A program made the position numbers and the translations under genes. A DNA stretch of 26,506 nucleotides, from positions 1 to 26,506 of IMG/VR virus record IMGVR_UViG_3300006920_000200; one strand, written 5' to 3'. How positions within the stretch are numbered: the first letter of the stretch is position 1; every line of letters starts with the position of its first letter. Positions 9,031-26,506 of this stretch are shown here, piece after piece. This DNA is from a virus. The notes beneath the pieces are model-generated. The model did no database searches, was not told the DNA's origin, and saw only the letters and a list, made by a program, of their open reading frames with translations.

Positions 9031-9762
9031 TTAGAATGGAAGATCGTCTTCATCCGTTTCACCTACTGGTTCGTGTACTGGTGCATTACCAATAAAGTCC
9101 ATACTCTCAGGCAGATCGTTTGGTTTAGAGGCAGTATTTTTTGTCTCTTTCTTACTAAGGAAGTAATCGTCAACACTATCAAATGCTTGATTGGCGATAT
9201 CCTTCTCACCTTGCGTCAACTGAGCACCCCAAGCGAATACTGGAACACTCCACTTTGTAGCACCCTTCTTTCGATCCTCAGCACTCTCAATCACAAAGCT
9301 ATTGTTTAGCCATAGTGGATTATTCTTTTTAAAAGCATTGGTAAAGTTGATCCACTGAGAGAACGTATCACCTTTAAACACAATATTTACAATCTCACCA
9401 TCCAAGATAGCATAGATTCTTTTGGCATAACTTGCTCCAAGATCACCAACATTTGTCTTGATACTTGAATACATACCACTTACTAAAATACCACCCTTAG
9501 ATCTCACTGTAAATGCTTCATCGTTGATAAACTCTACGTCATTCGAATAGATTCTACTATTTGTCTTGTCATCAAATCCAACAATGGTAGATCGTTCTGT
9601 CAAGTAAACTAACTTGATTGGGAGTTTGAGCGTAACATTCTTTGCTGTATCCTTATCGTAATAGCGTAGTCCTTTGTTGTTGCTATCCCACTCTAACCAC
9701 TTTGCTGATGGATTTGAAACACCACCACTTGTCATTGCTTGTTCTCTTCTAGAATTGCTCAT
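9031..9762 (-). CDS. Single-stranded DNA-binding protein (phage type)
   Basis: This 243-aa protein ends with an acidic tail, ETDEDDLPF. This is the typical C-terminal tip of SSB proteins, used to recruit partner enzymes. The body (~15-190) is a beta-rich sequence that could be an OB fold but does not resemble bacterial Ssb. The middle contains aromatic segments (FKGDTFSQWINFTNAF, NPLWLNNSFVIE) that could stack on bases. Position supports the call: it is next to the RecB-like nuclease and in the polymerase operon. A strong terminator follows, as expected for a protein needed in large amounts. It should coat single-stranded DNA during replication and recombination. The start overlaps the upstream stop as ATGA. 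Confidence 0.75.
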   Translation of the reverse strand: MSNSRREQAMTSGGVSNPSAKWLEWDSNNKGLRYYDKDTAKNVTLKLPIKLVYLTERSTIVGFDDKTNSRIYSNDVEFINDEAFTVRSKGGILVSGMYSSIKTNVGDLGASYAKRIYAILDGEIVNIVFKGDTFSQWINFTNAFKKNNPLWLNNSFVIESAEDRKKGATKWSVPVFAWGAQLTQGEKDIANQAFDSVDDYFLSKKETKNTASKPNDLPESMDFIGNAPVHEPVGETDEDDLPF

Positions 9763-9959
9763 CGCTTTCTTAATTTTTTGGTTTTACTTTCGAACGTATA
9801 TGTACTAACGTAACTGTTGTATAAGCGTTGTCCTGCTATTGCTTGGACTAGGCTTATCACCTTATCTCTCATTTCGAAGAACGTCTTCCAATCTTCGAAG
9901 TAATCTGCGGAGGGCTTAACTACCTGAGTCGTCCCATCCATATACTTAATCGTAATCAT
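9759..9959 (-). CDS. Small hypothetical protein (66 aa), first gene of the leftward operon
   Basis: I choose ATG 9959 (MITIKYMDGTTQVVK) over an ATG at 10007. The longer version adds 16 residues that read through the candidate promoter and look non-coding. The protein is small and basic at the end (ESKTKKLRKR), with a strand-rich start and a helix FEDWKTFFEMRDKVISLVQAI. No family is recognised. Its stop overlaps the SSB start as ATGA. Confidence 0.6.
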   Translation of the reverse strand: MITIKYMDGTTQVVKPSADYFEDWKTFFEMRDKVISLVQAIAGQRLYNSYVSTYTFESKTKKLRKR

Positions 9960-9964
9960 TGAGA

Positions 9965-9994
9965 CAAACTTAGTAAAAAATAATGAGAAAAGAA
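9965..9994 (-). promoter_or_regulatory. Candidate promoter of the leftward replication operon
   Basis: On the minus strand TAAGTTTG (9965-9972) matches the -7 consensus TAnnTTTG. A pyrimidine-rich TTTC lies about 19 nt further upstream instead of TTTG. The start codon follows the -7 element after only 5 nt, so the message may be leaderless. No other clear promoter was seen on this strand between here and 10340. Confidence 0.5.
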
Positions 9995-10048
9995 AGGGAT
10001 CACCCAAGTTTATTTTTAGCTCTCAAATTAGCCTGGTTTATCCTTAGT

Positions 10049-10262
10049 GGTGTAGGGGTACTAAGAAATGAAACTTACACTATAATCATATAATATATAT
10101 TATTATTATTATTTTTAGGGTACTAAGTCCCCCAACGAGATAAGATGTTTTGTTTTGTTGTTTTATACAGAATATTATTTGGTTTATTTGATGATTTGTT
10201 TATGTTTATTCTTAACTAATTTTATCGACATGGGGGACTTAGTGCTATTTTTTGGGTACTAC
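10049..10262. repeat. Duplicated intergenic element, copy 1
   Basis: About 214 bp are repeated in the same orientation at 22684-22907. Shared parts, in order: a GGTGTAGGGGTACTAAG block; an AT tract with ATAATCATATAATATAT; CTAAGTCCCCCAACGAG; an identical 74-bp core (10166-10239); and GGGTACTAC. In this copy ACTAAGTCCCCC (10122-10133) is the exact reverse complement of 10232-10243, giving a 12-bp stem around 98 nt. It sits between the divergent leftward and rightward operons and is followed by an early-type promoter. No gene is supported inside it. Confidence 0.85.
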
Positions 10263-23705: not shown

Positions 23706-23776
23706 GAGAGACAAGAGCGCTATGCCCGTCTCTCTTCCCCACCCCTCCCCCTACACCCCCCCCCTCCCCCTCCCCC
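23706..23776 (+). other. Hairpin followed by a C-rich tract (G-quadruplex-prone on the minus strand)
   Basis: GAGAGAC (23706-23712) pairs with GTCTCTC (23728-23734). From 23737 to 23776 there are six C runs of 4 to 9 bases separated by one to four bases, so the minus strand has six G runs. This is striking, since the surrounding + strand is G-rich and C-poor. It may form a G-quadruplex, act as a rut-like site for Rho, or pause replication. It lies about 230 bp from the DnaA-box array. Confidence 0.8.
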
Positions 23777-24004: not shown

Positions 24005-24008
24005 TAAA

Positions 24009-24092
24009 TGTGGATAACTTGTGGATAACTACTAATAAAATGTGGATAACTTGTGGATAACTACTAATAAAATGTGGATAACTTGTGGATAA
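24009..24092 (+). repeat. DnaA-box array (six perfect boxes in three 32-bp units)
   Basis: TGTGGATAA, the reverse complement of the DnaA box TTATCCACA, occurs at 24009, 24020, 24041, 24052, 24073 and 24084. Pairs lie 11 bp apart (one helical turn) and the pair repeats every 32 bp, with CTACTAATAAAA between. All six match perfectly and point the same way. This should bind host DnaA, as at a chromosomal or plasmid origin, or titrate it. Confidence 0.9.
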
Positions 24093-24174
24093 CTTTTTTG
24101 GTGGGTTTAGTTCGGATATCTGGCTCACAAAAATAAAACGGTACACTCGTTCAAGCATAAAACCGCCTAAACAC

Positions 24175-24224
24175 ACCATACTTCCACAAAAATATGTCAA
24201 AACTTACCATACTTCCACAAAAAT
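24175..24224. repeat. 19-bp direct repeat, two copies
   Basis: ACCATACTTCCACAAAAAT is found at 24175-24193 and 24206-24224, 31 bp apart. It lies between the DnaA array and the parS-like site. It could bind a regulator; nothing shows which. Confidence 0.75.
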
Positions 24225-24285
24225 TTCGACAAAGTATTACGTACTTACATAATATTTTTAGACAAGATTATGTTTGAGCGTGAAG

Positions 24286-24301
24286 TGTTCCACGTGGAAC
24301 G
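24286..24301. promoter_or_regulatory. parS-like palindrome
   Basis: GTTCCACGTGGAAC (24287-24300) is a perfect 14-bp palindrome and matches the near-universal ParB site GTTyCACGTGrAAC. The 5' T also fits the 16-bp form; only the last base (G) differs. It directly abuts the 14-bp iterons. No parB gene is visible in the window, so host ParB is the likely binder, if any. Confidence 0.7.
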
Positions 24302-24366
24302 TCTGGATACAGCGGTCTGGATACAAGCGTCTGGATACGGAGCTCCGGATACGTGGGTCTGGGCTA
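24301..24366 (+). repeat. Five 14-bp iteron-like tandem repeats
   Basis: GTCTGGATAC plus four variable bases repeats every 14 bp from 24301, 24315 and 24329. A degenerate copy (CTCCGGATAC) starts at 24343 and a partial one (GTCTGGGCTA) at 24357. Exact spacing and a kept core are typical of initiator-binding iterons. Confidence 0.85.
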
Positions 24367-24414
24367 TTTAGGTGGTCAACTACACGTTTCGACACACCTT
24401 GTCTACGATCGTTT

Positions 24415-24506
24415 CGTAACTAAAAATATGGTCTCAATTACGTAATGTTCGTAACGTAACTAAAAATATGGTCTTAATTACGTAATGTTCGTAGCATAAC
24501 TAAAAA
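24415..24506 (+). repeat. 40-bp tandem repeats (2.3 copies)
   Basis: Units start at 24415 and 24455, with a partial copy at 24495. Each holds CGTAACTAAAAATATGGTCT and the palindrome ATTACGTAAT followed by GTTCGTA. The first two copies differ by one base over 40. The palindrome could be a protein-binding site repeated at fixed spacing. Confidence 0.85.
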
Positions 24507-24530
24507 ATAAAGGGCTATACTAGGCCCCTT
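24502..24530 (-). terminator. Terminator of the 56-aa minus-strand gene
   Basis: On the minus strand AAGGGGC and GCCCTT pair across a short loop (one bulged G), followed by TATTTTTTA. The stem overlaps the last codons and stop of the gene at 24515-24685. Confidence 0.6.
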
Positions 24531-24685
24531 AATTTACAATAGTTAAACATTGCAGTTACGTTGTACTGCCAGTTTTTCCCGCATTTTTGTAATTGTTTTG
24601 CAGTTCCAGTCTTGCCCTCATATTTGCAAATTGCTAATGCCAAACTAGGTAAATCGTTTTCGAGTACTTTTGCGTTTTTTTCCAT
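24515..24685 (-). CDS. Small hypothetical protein in the repeat-rich locus (56 aa)
   Basis: The ORF runs from ATG 24685 to TAG at 24515-24517. The protein (MEKNAKVLENDLPSLALAIC, then KYEGKTGTAKQLQKCGKNWQ, ending CKLRGLV) is basic and helical, with three cysteines. It is the only gene I can support between 24005 and 24928. A hairpin with a T run at its end supports it as real. It could be a small regulator acting on the repeats around it, but that is only position-based. I saw no full-consensus promoter upstream; TAGTTTG around 24717-24723 (minus) is a weak candidate. Family not recognised. Confidence 0.55.
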   Translation of the reverse strand: MEKNAKVLENDLPSLALAICKYEGKTGTAKQLQKCGKNWQYNVTAMFNYCKLRGLV

Positions 24686-24847
24686 GCCTAAAAGTACGAA
24701 AAAAATTGGTTAATGCAAACTATTACAAAAAATAAATAAATAAAAAATAAATATGTTTTTACTTGTTTTATTTGATTAAATTGTTATAACACGGGCGCGC
24801 GTTATTTTTAAAGGTGTAAAAATAAATTGATTATTTTTTACAAAAGT

Positions 24848-24877
24848 TTGTACCTAATTAAAAAAATCGTACATTTG
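24848..24877 (+). promoter_or_regulatory. Consensus promoter of the right-end operon
   Basis: TTG (24848-24850, as TTTG from 24847), exactly 19 nt, then TACATTTG (24870-24877) match the Bacteroidota consensus. Upstream, 24700-24847 is a strongly AT-rich stretch with a single GCGCGC island (24794-24799) and no gene that I can support. The first ATG (24929) is 52 nt downstream. Confidence 0.8.
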
Positions 24878-24928
24878 AAAAGTCGGAAGGAACAAACCAA
24901 AAAGACTCAAAACTAAAAATATATTAAC

Positions 24929-25024
24929 ATGAAAAATTATCAATTTGTAATCGTACTAGCAGTAAGTTTATTAATAGTTACTTTTGGAGTTTATTTTGCC
25001 AGTCAAAATTTATACATATATTAA
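24929..25024 (+). CDS. Tiny membrane protein (31 aa)
   Basis: ATG 24929 to TAA 25022-25024. The peptide starts MKNYQF, continues with one hydrophobic helix (VIVLAVSLLIVTFGVYF) and ends ASQNLYIY. It is the first ORF after the consensus promoter, with an A-rich leader (ATATTAACATG). It probably spans the inner membrane. Role unknown; it may also act as a leader for the next gene, 9 nt away. Confidence 0.5.
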   Translation: MKNYQFVIVLAVSLLIVTFGVYFASQNLYIY

Positions 25025-25033
25025 ACTAAAATT

Positions 25034-25525
25034 ATGAAAAACATTAATACCAAGTTAGGGCTAATTCAAAGATACAAAGTATCAATTCCTTTCAGTATCA
25101 CTTTAAATAGGTTTATTGAAGACCAGTTCAATAAACTGCCTTTTGAAACTCAATTTGTAGATTTTGAACCCTACAAAGATTTTAATGATATGGTTAAACA
25201 GTTTGAAAGTACACACATACTTAAAATTAGTACTCTACATTGCGAAAAAACAATTTTTGGAGATCCAGTAATAAACCAAAAATTTAGAGCGTTTCACGAT
25301 TTTATTCACATTACTGAAAATTTAGATTTCGAATTCGAATCTGAATTATTAGTTAATTATGCCCAGACAAAAATTGGTTTAAAGTATGGTTTAAACCGAT
25401 GGGACTTGCAATTACTTAATATTGAAACAGCAGGTCAAATTGCATATTTTAGAATTAATGGTTTTTTTCCTGAAGACCAAAGGGCATTTGCAGTTACCGA
25501 ATTATTAAATTCATTCAGATACTAG
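25034..25525 (+). CDS. Unrecognised phage protein with HDFIH motif (163 aa)
   Basis: After an AAATTATG leader, the protein has a strand-rich first half (IQRYKVSIPFSITLNRFIED, ISTLHCEKTIFGDPVIN). Then comes FRAFHDFIHITENLDFEFES, a His-Asp-x-x-His cluster that could bind a metal. A helix follows (ELLVNYAQTKIGLKYGL), and the C-terminus ends in a helix (FAVTELLNSF). I recall phage proteins with a similar 'FRAxHD.xH..' block but no assigned function. The coding strand is A-rich, unlike the G/T-rich genes left of the repeat locus. It is followed after one base by the next gene. Confidence 0.65.
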   Translation: MKNINTKLGLIQRYKVSIPFSITLNRFIEDQFNKLPFETQFVDFEPYKDFNDMVKQFESTHILKISTLHCEKTIFGDPVINQKFRAFHDFIHITENLDFEFESELLVNYAQTKIGLKYGLNRWDLQLLNIETAGQIAYFRINGFFPEDQRAFAVTELLNSFRY

Positions 25526-25526
25526 T

Positions 25527-26213
25527 ATGAAAAACAACCTAACAATTCAATTGGCCGAAAGTAGTGATTACTTTCGGGCAAATATCGAAAACTTTATTAA
25601 TAGTGAAAATTTCAATATTAATTTTGGCGTTAATTGGTATTCCTTTGCCAGAAAGGAGTTATTAGATGAATTACAAAAAGTTTACATGCCTACCCAGTGG
25701 CATTTTAGCGAAAGTGAGATACTATTATTTGCTTCTATTTTATCCCCGGCAAACCGTTGGGACAAAAATATAGAAGACGTAATAAATTTTATTAAGTGGT
25801 ACCACGCAAACTTTGATGAGTCCTGTAAGCCAAAATTTTGTACCTATGGTCAGAATGTTAATAAGTGTATTGACTTAATACAAACTAGAGATAAATATAA
25901 GATACTTAATCAATGGTATGTTAAAGGTTTGATTGTTTGGATTAATACAAATATGAAAGCTCATAAAACTCTAAATTTCTTCAAGCATTTGGACAACCCT
26001 AAAGATAGTAAGTGGTTTACAATTGACAGGCATATGCTTAAAATATCAGGCATTGAATCTTTAAGCATCACTCCAAAGCAGTATATATTGCTTCAAGAAA
26101 TATACTTGGAAGCATTTGAGTCTATGAAAGATAAATTTAAATATAGCTCAGAATTTCAGTCTATTTTATGGTCTAACTTTGTTTATCAAAGGCATGGTAT
26201 TTTACACTATTAA
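25527..26213 (+). CDS. Unrecognised protein with helix-hairpin-helix/glycosylase-like outline (228 aa)
   Basis: This all-helical protein begins MKNNLTIQLAESSDYFRANI. Around 63-80 it has SEILLFASILSPANRWDKNI, then after a stretch with several Cys the block KTLNFFKHLDNPKDSKWFTI and DRHMLKISGI. The order 'LSP...W..N', then 'K...F..nL', then '(F)TIDRHM' resembles phage proteins of the DUF7178 kind and, more distantly, HhH-GPD DNA glycosylases, whose conserved Asp follows a short loop. The similarity is from memory and not tested. If true, it would bind DNA and possibly remove modified bases. It lies one base after the HDFIH gene, so the two are probably partners. Confidence 0.6.
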   Translation: MKNNLTIQLAESSDYFRANIENFINSENFNINFGVNWYSFARKELLDELQKVYMPTQWHFSESEILLFASILSPANRWDKNIEDVINFIKWYHANFDESCKPKFCTYGQNVNKCIDLIQTRDKYKILNQWYVKGLIVWINTNMKAHKTLNFFKHLDNPKDSKWFTIDRHMLKISGIESLSITPKQYILLQEIYLEAFESMKDKFKYSSEFQSILWSNFVYQRHGILHY

Positions 26214-26223
26214 ACTATAAGCT

Positions 26224-26295
26224 ATGGCATTATTACTAATAGTCTGGTATATTCTTCTGATCATTATAGGCTTAGCTATAATAAATAAGAAGTAG
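26224..26295 (+). CDS. Tiny membrane peptide (23 aa)
   Basis: ATG 26224 to TAG 26293-26295 encodes MALLLIVWYILLIIIGLAII plus NKK, a single hydrophobic helix with a basic end. It sits 10 nt after the previous stop and just before a terminator hairpin, so it is in a transcribed place. It is too short to be sure. Confidence 0.4.
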   Translation: MALLLIVWYILLIIIGLAIINKK

Positions 26296-26309
26296 TTTAG
26301 CTCAAGCAT

Positions 26310-26343
26310 AATAAGTCCTAGCATTAATTTGTTAGGACTTATT
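26310..26343 (+). terminator. Hairpin terminator of the right-end operon
   Basis: AATAAGTCCTA (26310-26320) pairs perfectly with 26333-26343 around a 12-nt loop, followed by a T/G-rich stretch. It lies 14 nt after the last small ORF. From 26344 to 26506 I see no gene I can support. A 16-codon minus-strand ORF (26438-26488) and an ACGTGGAAC half-site at the right edge are the only things of note. Confidence 0.7.
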
Positions 26344-26506
26344 TGTGTTTAGTTGTGATATGTAATTAGTTAATTGATTGATGTAGTTACGTTAGGAAAT
26401 AGTTGTGATTGAGATTAGTTATGTGAAAACGACTCCCCTAGTTCACCGGGTCACAGCCTCCTTTCAACCCTCTCAAACAAAATTCCATATCTTTTACGTG
26501 GAACTA

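Follow-up and report, generated by a model that had tools for sequence, protein, structure and literature searches.

Phages that partition as plasmids are known to bring their own ParA and ParB. Phage-plasmids of the P1, P7 and N15 type encode Rep, ParA and ParB, carry longer iterons of about 19 bp and have a parS unlike that of the host. In the extrachromosomal mycobacteriophages RedRock and Miko, which also encode ParA and ParB, parS consists of short direct repeats (PMC7157519). In the Bacteroidota, the chromosomal parS consensus is TGTTTCACGTGAAACA (Livny et al. 2007, as quoted in PMC10197239), and the biology of the ParB-CTP clamp has been summarised elsewhere (PMC12704722). Within the part of the open-access literature that was covered, we found no report of phages that use a chromosomal-type parS with host ParB.

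The locus described here lies in a viral contig of 26,506 bp, the whole of which was analysed (the window), and contains a perfect 14-bp palindrome, GTTCCACGTGGAAC, that occurs nowhere else in the record (Table 1). It is like the chromosomal ParABS of the Bacteroidota in the identity of the palindrome and in its non-coding location, but the phage site is single and borne on a virus contig, DnaA boxes and an array of 14-bp units take the place of ybeY and mnmG, and within this incomplete contig there is no complete ParABS system with parA and parB encoded alongside the site. With P1, P7 and N15 it shares an iteron-type array near the putative partition site and DnaA boxes at the candidate origin. 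Similarly, RedRock and Miko have a phage partition site near an origin-like region with direct repeats (PMC7157519), whereas the present contig has a palindrome of host type and no visible ParAB.

The gene content of the contig points to its host. The best matches of TerL are Croceibacter phages and phage PJN03, at 32-37%, while a 382-aa phrog_8189 protein matched 77 records, nearly all of them phages of Flavobacterium, Bacteroides, Parabacteroides and Croceibacter. The contig also encodes a BT4734-like primase domain and a VapE-like helicase that is closest to those of Cellulophaga phages. On the basis of these relatives, the host is very probably a Bacteroidota bacterium, resolved to the level of the phylum. 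When the main ORFs were scanned with Pfam and PHROG, the matches comprised, along with the helicase and primase, a DNA polymerase A, an exonuclease, a PD-(D/E)XK nuclease, a lysozyme, DUF3310 and DUF7178; TerL and TerS are present, and the lysis genes lie at the left end of the contig. Portal, capsid and most tail genes were not recognised in the contig, which indicates that the linear record is incomplete. In the same scans of this incomplete contig no ParA, ParB, Rep or integrase was found, and ParB_N had no match in the whole record, in agreement with the original prediction that no parA or parB is visible. Two genes at the right end match phage families of unknown function (phrog_7806 and phrog_3842/DUF7178). 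The right-end genes, including that for the DUF7178 protein, had no match in 395 Bacteroidota genomes in a search run without a positive control, and so yielded no host genus; predicted structures of two right-end proteins had a pLDDT of 38 and were discarded.

The match of the palindrome to a ParB site, as first proposed, is exact. With a T bordering it on the left and a G on the right, GTTCCACGTGGAAC agrees with the canonical 16-mer TGTTCCACGTGGAACA at 15 of 16 positions. Markov models of orders 0-3 predict 2.5e-4 to 4.6e-4 occurrences per window for the parS family GTTYCACGTGRAAC and 3e-5 to 6e-5 for the exact 14-mer. Perfect palindromes of at least 14 bp arose in 295 of 2,000 shuffles of this A+T-rich region, so that the identity of the sequence with parS, and not its palindromy, carries the significance. 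A chance of about 3e-4 for GTTYCACGTGRAAC is not negligible by itself, because a genome scan covers very many windows. The 9-bp right half of the palindrome, ACGTGGAAC, is found again at 26496-26504, which is within chance expectation. A coding role for the palindrome was rejected, as the longest ORFs crossing it are 33-49 aa and the 14-bp period of the adjoining array does not hold a reading frame.

The same sequence is widespread in the chromosomes of the likely host phylum. Among 99 Bacteroidota genomes drawn evenly, 93 contain the GTTNCACGTGNAAC family, with up to nine sites per genome, and among the matches listed nearly all are GTTYCACGTGRAAC. T and C forms coexist within one genome, which suggests that host ParBs accept the GTTCCACGTGGAAC form. 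The exact 14-mer is present in 37 of 198 Bacteroidota genomes, compared with 1 of 198 for a reversed control (Fisher p about 5e-11), often as 2-4 copies that cluster within 40-250 bp or lie on either side of a 1.9-kb gene. The outer flanks of host sites are T/A on 83 of 112 sides (~74%), and all 16 of the site-positive Bacteroidota genomes tested encode ParB_N proteins. By its sequence, then, the palindrome is a host parS at the level of the phylum, and the concern that the host site might differ in sequence falls away at that level.

The layout around the site, on the other hand, is not that of the host. In the host loci that we read, the sites adjoin YbeY (L218, L228) or MnmG/GidA (L212, L213, L214, L237), and consensus DnaA boxes are absent from the 3-kb host parS pieces, where CTGGATAC is also almost missing. 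The phage layout is therefore its own rather than a host copy, which weakens the suggestion in the original prediction that the locus mimics a host origin-partition region.

Table 1 Features of the palindrome locus and of other notable stretches in the window.
Feature	Position	Strand	Description
Strong cumulative GC-skew minimum	9500-10150		At a divergent-gene junction; second candidate origin
40-bp C-rich tract	23737-23776		CCCCTC repeats; follows the final gene of the long cluster on the + strand
Non-coding stretch, 510 bp	24005-24514		No convincing gene; houses the palindrome, array, DnaA boxes and repeats
Three 32-bp repeats	24006-24101	+	Six consensus DnaA boxes, TGTGGATAA (TTATCCACA on the - strand), starting at 24009, 24020, 24041, 24052, 24073 and 24084; boxes span 24009-24092
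Direct repeat, 16 bp	24177-24192 and 24208-24223	+	CATACTTCCACAAAAA, two exact copies
Perfect 14-bp palindrome	24287-24300		GTTCCACGTGGAAC; identical to chromosomal parS of Bacteroidota in its exact-14-mer form; site at which host ParB is proposed to load
Array of 14-bp units	24301-24352	+	GTCTGGATACNNNN; proposed initiator- or DnaA-type binding array; GTCTGGATAC exact at 24301, 24315 and 24329; degenerate fourth unit CTCCGGATAC at 24343
Doubtful fifth unit	24357-24366	+	GTCTGGGCTA; 5/9 core letters kept
40-bp repeat, ~2.3 copies	24409-24506	+	Includes the palindrome ATTACGTAAT
Low-GC right end	24500-26506		GC drops to about 0.28-0.31 (vs 0.35-0.40); GC skew flattens
Possible small gene, 56 aa	24515-24685	-	Terminator-like hairpin behind it; right bound of the non-coding stretch
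A+T-rich stretch	24710-24949		Candidate unwinding region; 0.72-0.88 A+T in 60-bp blocks

The array begins at the base directly after the palindrome, as originally described, and of the five iterons then claimed three are exact, a fourth carries two mismatches and the fifth is doubtful. An equally spaced triple of any 10-mer arose in none of 2,000 shuffles of the region; this ordered arrangement is not the product of chance. The TCTGGATAC of the array agrees with the DnaA box TGTGGATAA at seven of nine letters. Tandem TCTGGATAC pairs gave eight viral-contig matches in about five unrelated contexts, none of them near parS, and the array was rejected as a marker of a known phage family. The six consensus DnaA boxes lie 195 bp upstream of the palindrome, close to the distance of about 200 bp first given. 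Iteron-controlled theta plasmid origins are recognised by directly repeated iterons of 17-22 bp together with a cognate Rep gene; here the units are 14 bp long, three exact and one degenerate, and no Rep family was matched. The A+T-rich stretch lies beyond the small ORF, at least 360 bp from the array and at least 600 bp from the DnaA boxes, and the only strong GC-skew minimum of the contig is near 9.7 kb, away from the palindrome locus. An Rfam search of the interval 23.0-26.5 kb returned no match.

By blastn, the tandem DnaA repeats align with microviruses, Lactococcus phages, Escherichia phage P483 and a Palibaumannia plasmid. These carry TGTGGATAACT repeats of the same kind, with the repeat stretch alone aligning (6-7% of the query), which suggests that tandem DnaA boxes recur among unrelated small replicons. 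We know of no parS in the tandem DnaA-box arrays of microviruses or other phages.

The palindrome was absent from all 31 TerL-related viral records and from 14 phage records, of which one is crAss-like and the other 13 come from Bacteroidota phages or their relatives; many of these records are fragmentary and distant. It is thus not kept in relatives at roughly 23-37% protein identity, and single-sequence DNA polymerase and TerL scans of viral contigs yielded no close relatives. Given these absences, the site looks lineage-specific and may be a local acquisition, or else the relatives may be too distant to tell.

Host-type parS without ParB nevertheless recurs in other contigs classed as viral, often in intergenic positions and sometimes in clusters. 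IMG/VR viral contigs were scanned for the 14-mer and the 16-mer, with all counts referring to the matches listed, and the comparison rests on intergenic fraction, flanks and clustering. Among the matches listed, the viral 14-mer has the T/A outer flanks that complete the full parS 16-mer on 103 of 162 sides (binomial p about 1e-18). Of the 120 distinct 16-mer sites among the matches listed, 57 fall outside long frames, compared with 3 of 82 for the control palindrome; expressed the other way, 52% of the 16-mer sites and 96% of the matched control lie inside long stop-free frames (Fisher p about 6e-13). Two or more exact family sites occur in 17 of the 181 viral loci among the matches listed and in none of 0.98 Mb of control loci. 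ParB_N was found in 0 of 34 parS-bearing viral records and Terminase_6N exceeded the cut-off in at least 7 of them. Of the parS-bearing viral contigs as a whole, some may include host sequence, many are fragmentary and most are not Bacteroidota phages. DnaA boxes stand beside none of 55 other viral parS sites, and a general origin-plus-parS rule was rejected on these grounds.

Nine of the viral contigs (L104, L290, L252, L265, L107, L256, L284, L293 and L294) carry 2-5 exact parS-family sites each, with several site pairs exactly 23-24 bp apart, and are the strongest cases of phage-borne parS clusters. The palindrome followed within 20 bp by CTGGATAC gave three viral-contig matches, two of them the same coding sequence and one intergenic; these numbers are near chance and the matches were set aside as evidence. 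In the intergenic case, a GC-rich phage contig (L003; 3727-4582 and 11293), the palindrome again lies in non-coding DNA and is followed 11 bp later by CTGGATAC; one strand carries four CTGGATAC, compared with 0.12 expected.

The observation behind the original prediction is therefore essentially right and its parS identity well supported, with fewer iterons and a weaker case for mimicry of the host layout. We propose that the locus is a cis-acting maintenance or replication region of the phage with one host-type parS that would be read by host ParB, and assign this reading a probability of about 0.5. Because the site is the parS of the host phylum and the contig shows no partition gene, the borrowing of host ParB raised in the original prediction is the natural reading, and the virus probably does so. 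Host ParB, as a dimer with CTP, would recognise GTTCCACGTGGAAC, close as a clamp and slide onto the phage DNA; judged from the sequence, its binding to the site is likely. Through ParB, the phage molecule would be linked to host ParA and SMC, and could be positioned or partitioned in the manner of a chromosome origin. Host DnaA would be recruited by the DnaA boxes, while the 14-bp array may bind DnaA weakly or bind some other initiator, which would set the start of replication next to ParB loading; origin activity of the locus is plausible. The benefit to the phage may be segregation or positioning while it is extrachromosomal, or tethering in the course of lytic growth. Against this proposal stand the single site, the lack of a match in the relatives examined, the location of the GC-skew minimum elsewhere, the chance expectation over a scan of very many windows, the absence of DnaA boxes beside other viral parS sites and the possibility that ParAB, Rep or integrase are encoded in the portion of the genome that the contig lacks.

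That last point leads to a phage-plasmid whose parS and array serve a ParAB or Rep encoded outside the fragment. Known phage-plasmids and extrachromosomal mycobacteriophages do carry parABS by the origin, and a linear record lacking recognised portal, capsid and most tail genes leaves room for such genes, but the parS reported for those phages is an array of short direct repeats rather than a chromosomal palindrome (PMC7157519). ParB_N is, moreover, missing both from this contig and from the 34 other parS-bearing viral records, and we regard an unseen ParAB as quite unlikely. An assembly join or captured host DNA, which would make the right end foreign and the site an arrival with host origin DNA, is very improbable: from about 24.5 kb GC declines and the skew levels off, but the palindrome, the array and the DnaA boxes all lie to the left of this drop, the right-end genes match phrog_7806 and phrog_3842 and were not found in the 395 Bacteroidota genomes (searched without a positive control), and the host parS neighbours ybeY and mnmG are absent here.

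The site could instead titrate host ParB, or spreading ParB could repress neighbouring early genes or alter origin firing, with no role in partition. One site is enough to load many ParB clamps (PMC12704722), the nearby DnaA boxes could titrate DnaA likewise, and tandem boxes of a similar kind are found in small single-stranded DNA phages; yet a single site is a weak sink relative to host genomes with up to nine, and six DnaA boxes with ordered repeats resemble an origin more than a sink, which makes a decoy or regulatory role a distinctly doubtful account. The palindrome might also be fortuitous, or serve as the operator for some regulator, of phage or host origin, with an affinity for GTTCCACGTGGAAC. 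Its absence from distant relatives, the frequency of some 14-bp palindrome in shuffles of this region, the very many windows scanned and the second occurrence of ACGTGGAAC are all compatible with this. We consider it unlikely in view of the low expectation for the parS family and the position of the site against a repeat array in a non-coding region, and we know of no regulator with GTTCCACGTGGAAC as its operator.

Host-ParB borrowing, if true, would mean that a virus joins the chromosome segregation machinery of the cell by 14 bases, with a host-type site alone. More tentatively, virus-borne host centromeres may form a real and repeated class, in which diverse ParB-less phages use host ParB, ParA and SMC to hold, position or partition their genomes, and in which the present phage would couple the site to a DnaA-box origin. 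Since the ParB-less site recurs in viral contigs, cultured phage-host pairs offer a way to test the question, and a host-type parS could be a simple marker, readable from sequence, of viruses that pass through an extrachromosomal or nucleoid-tethered stage.
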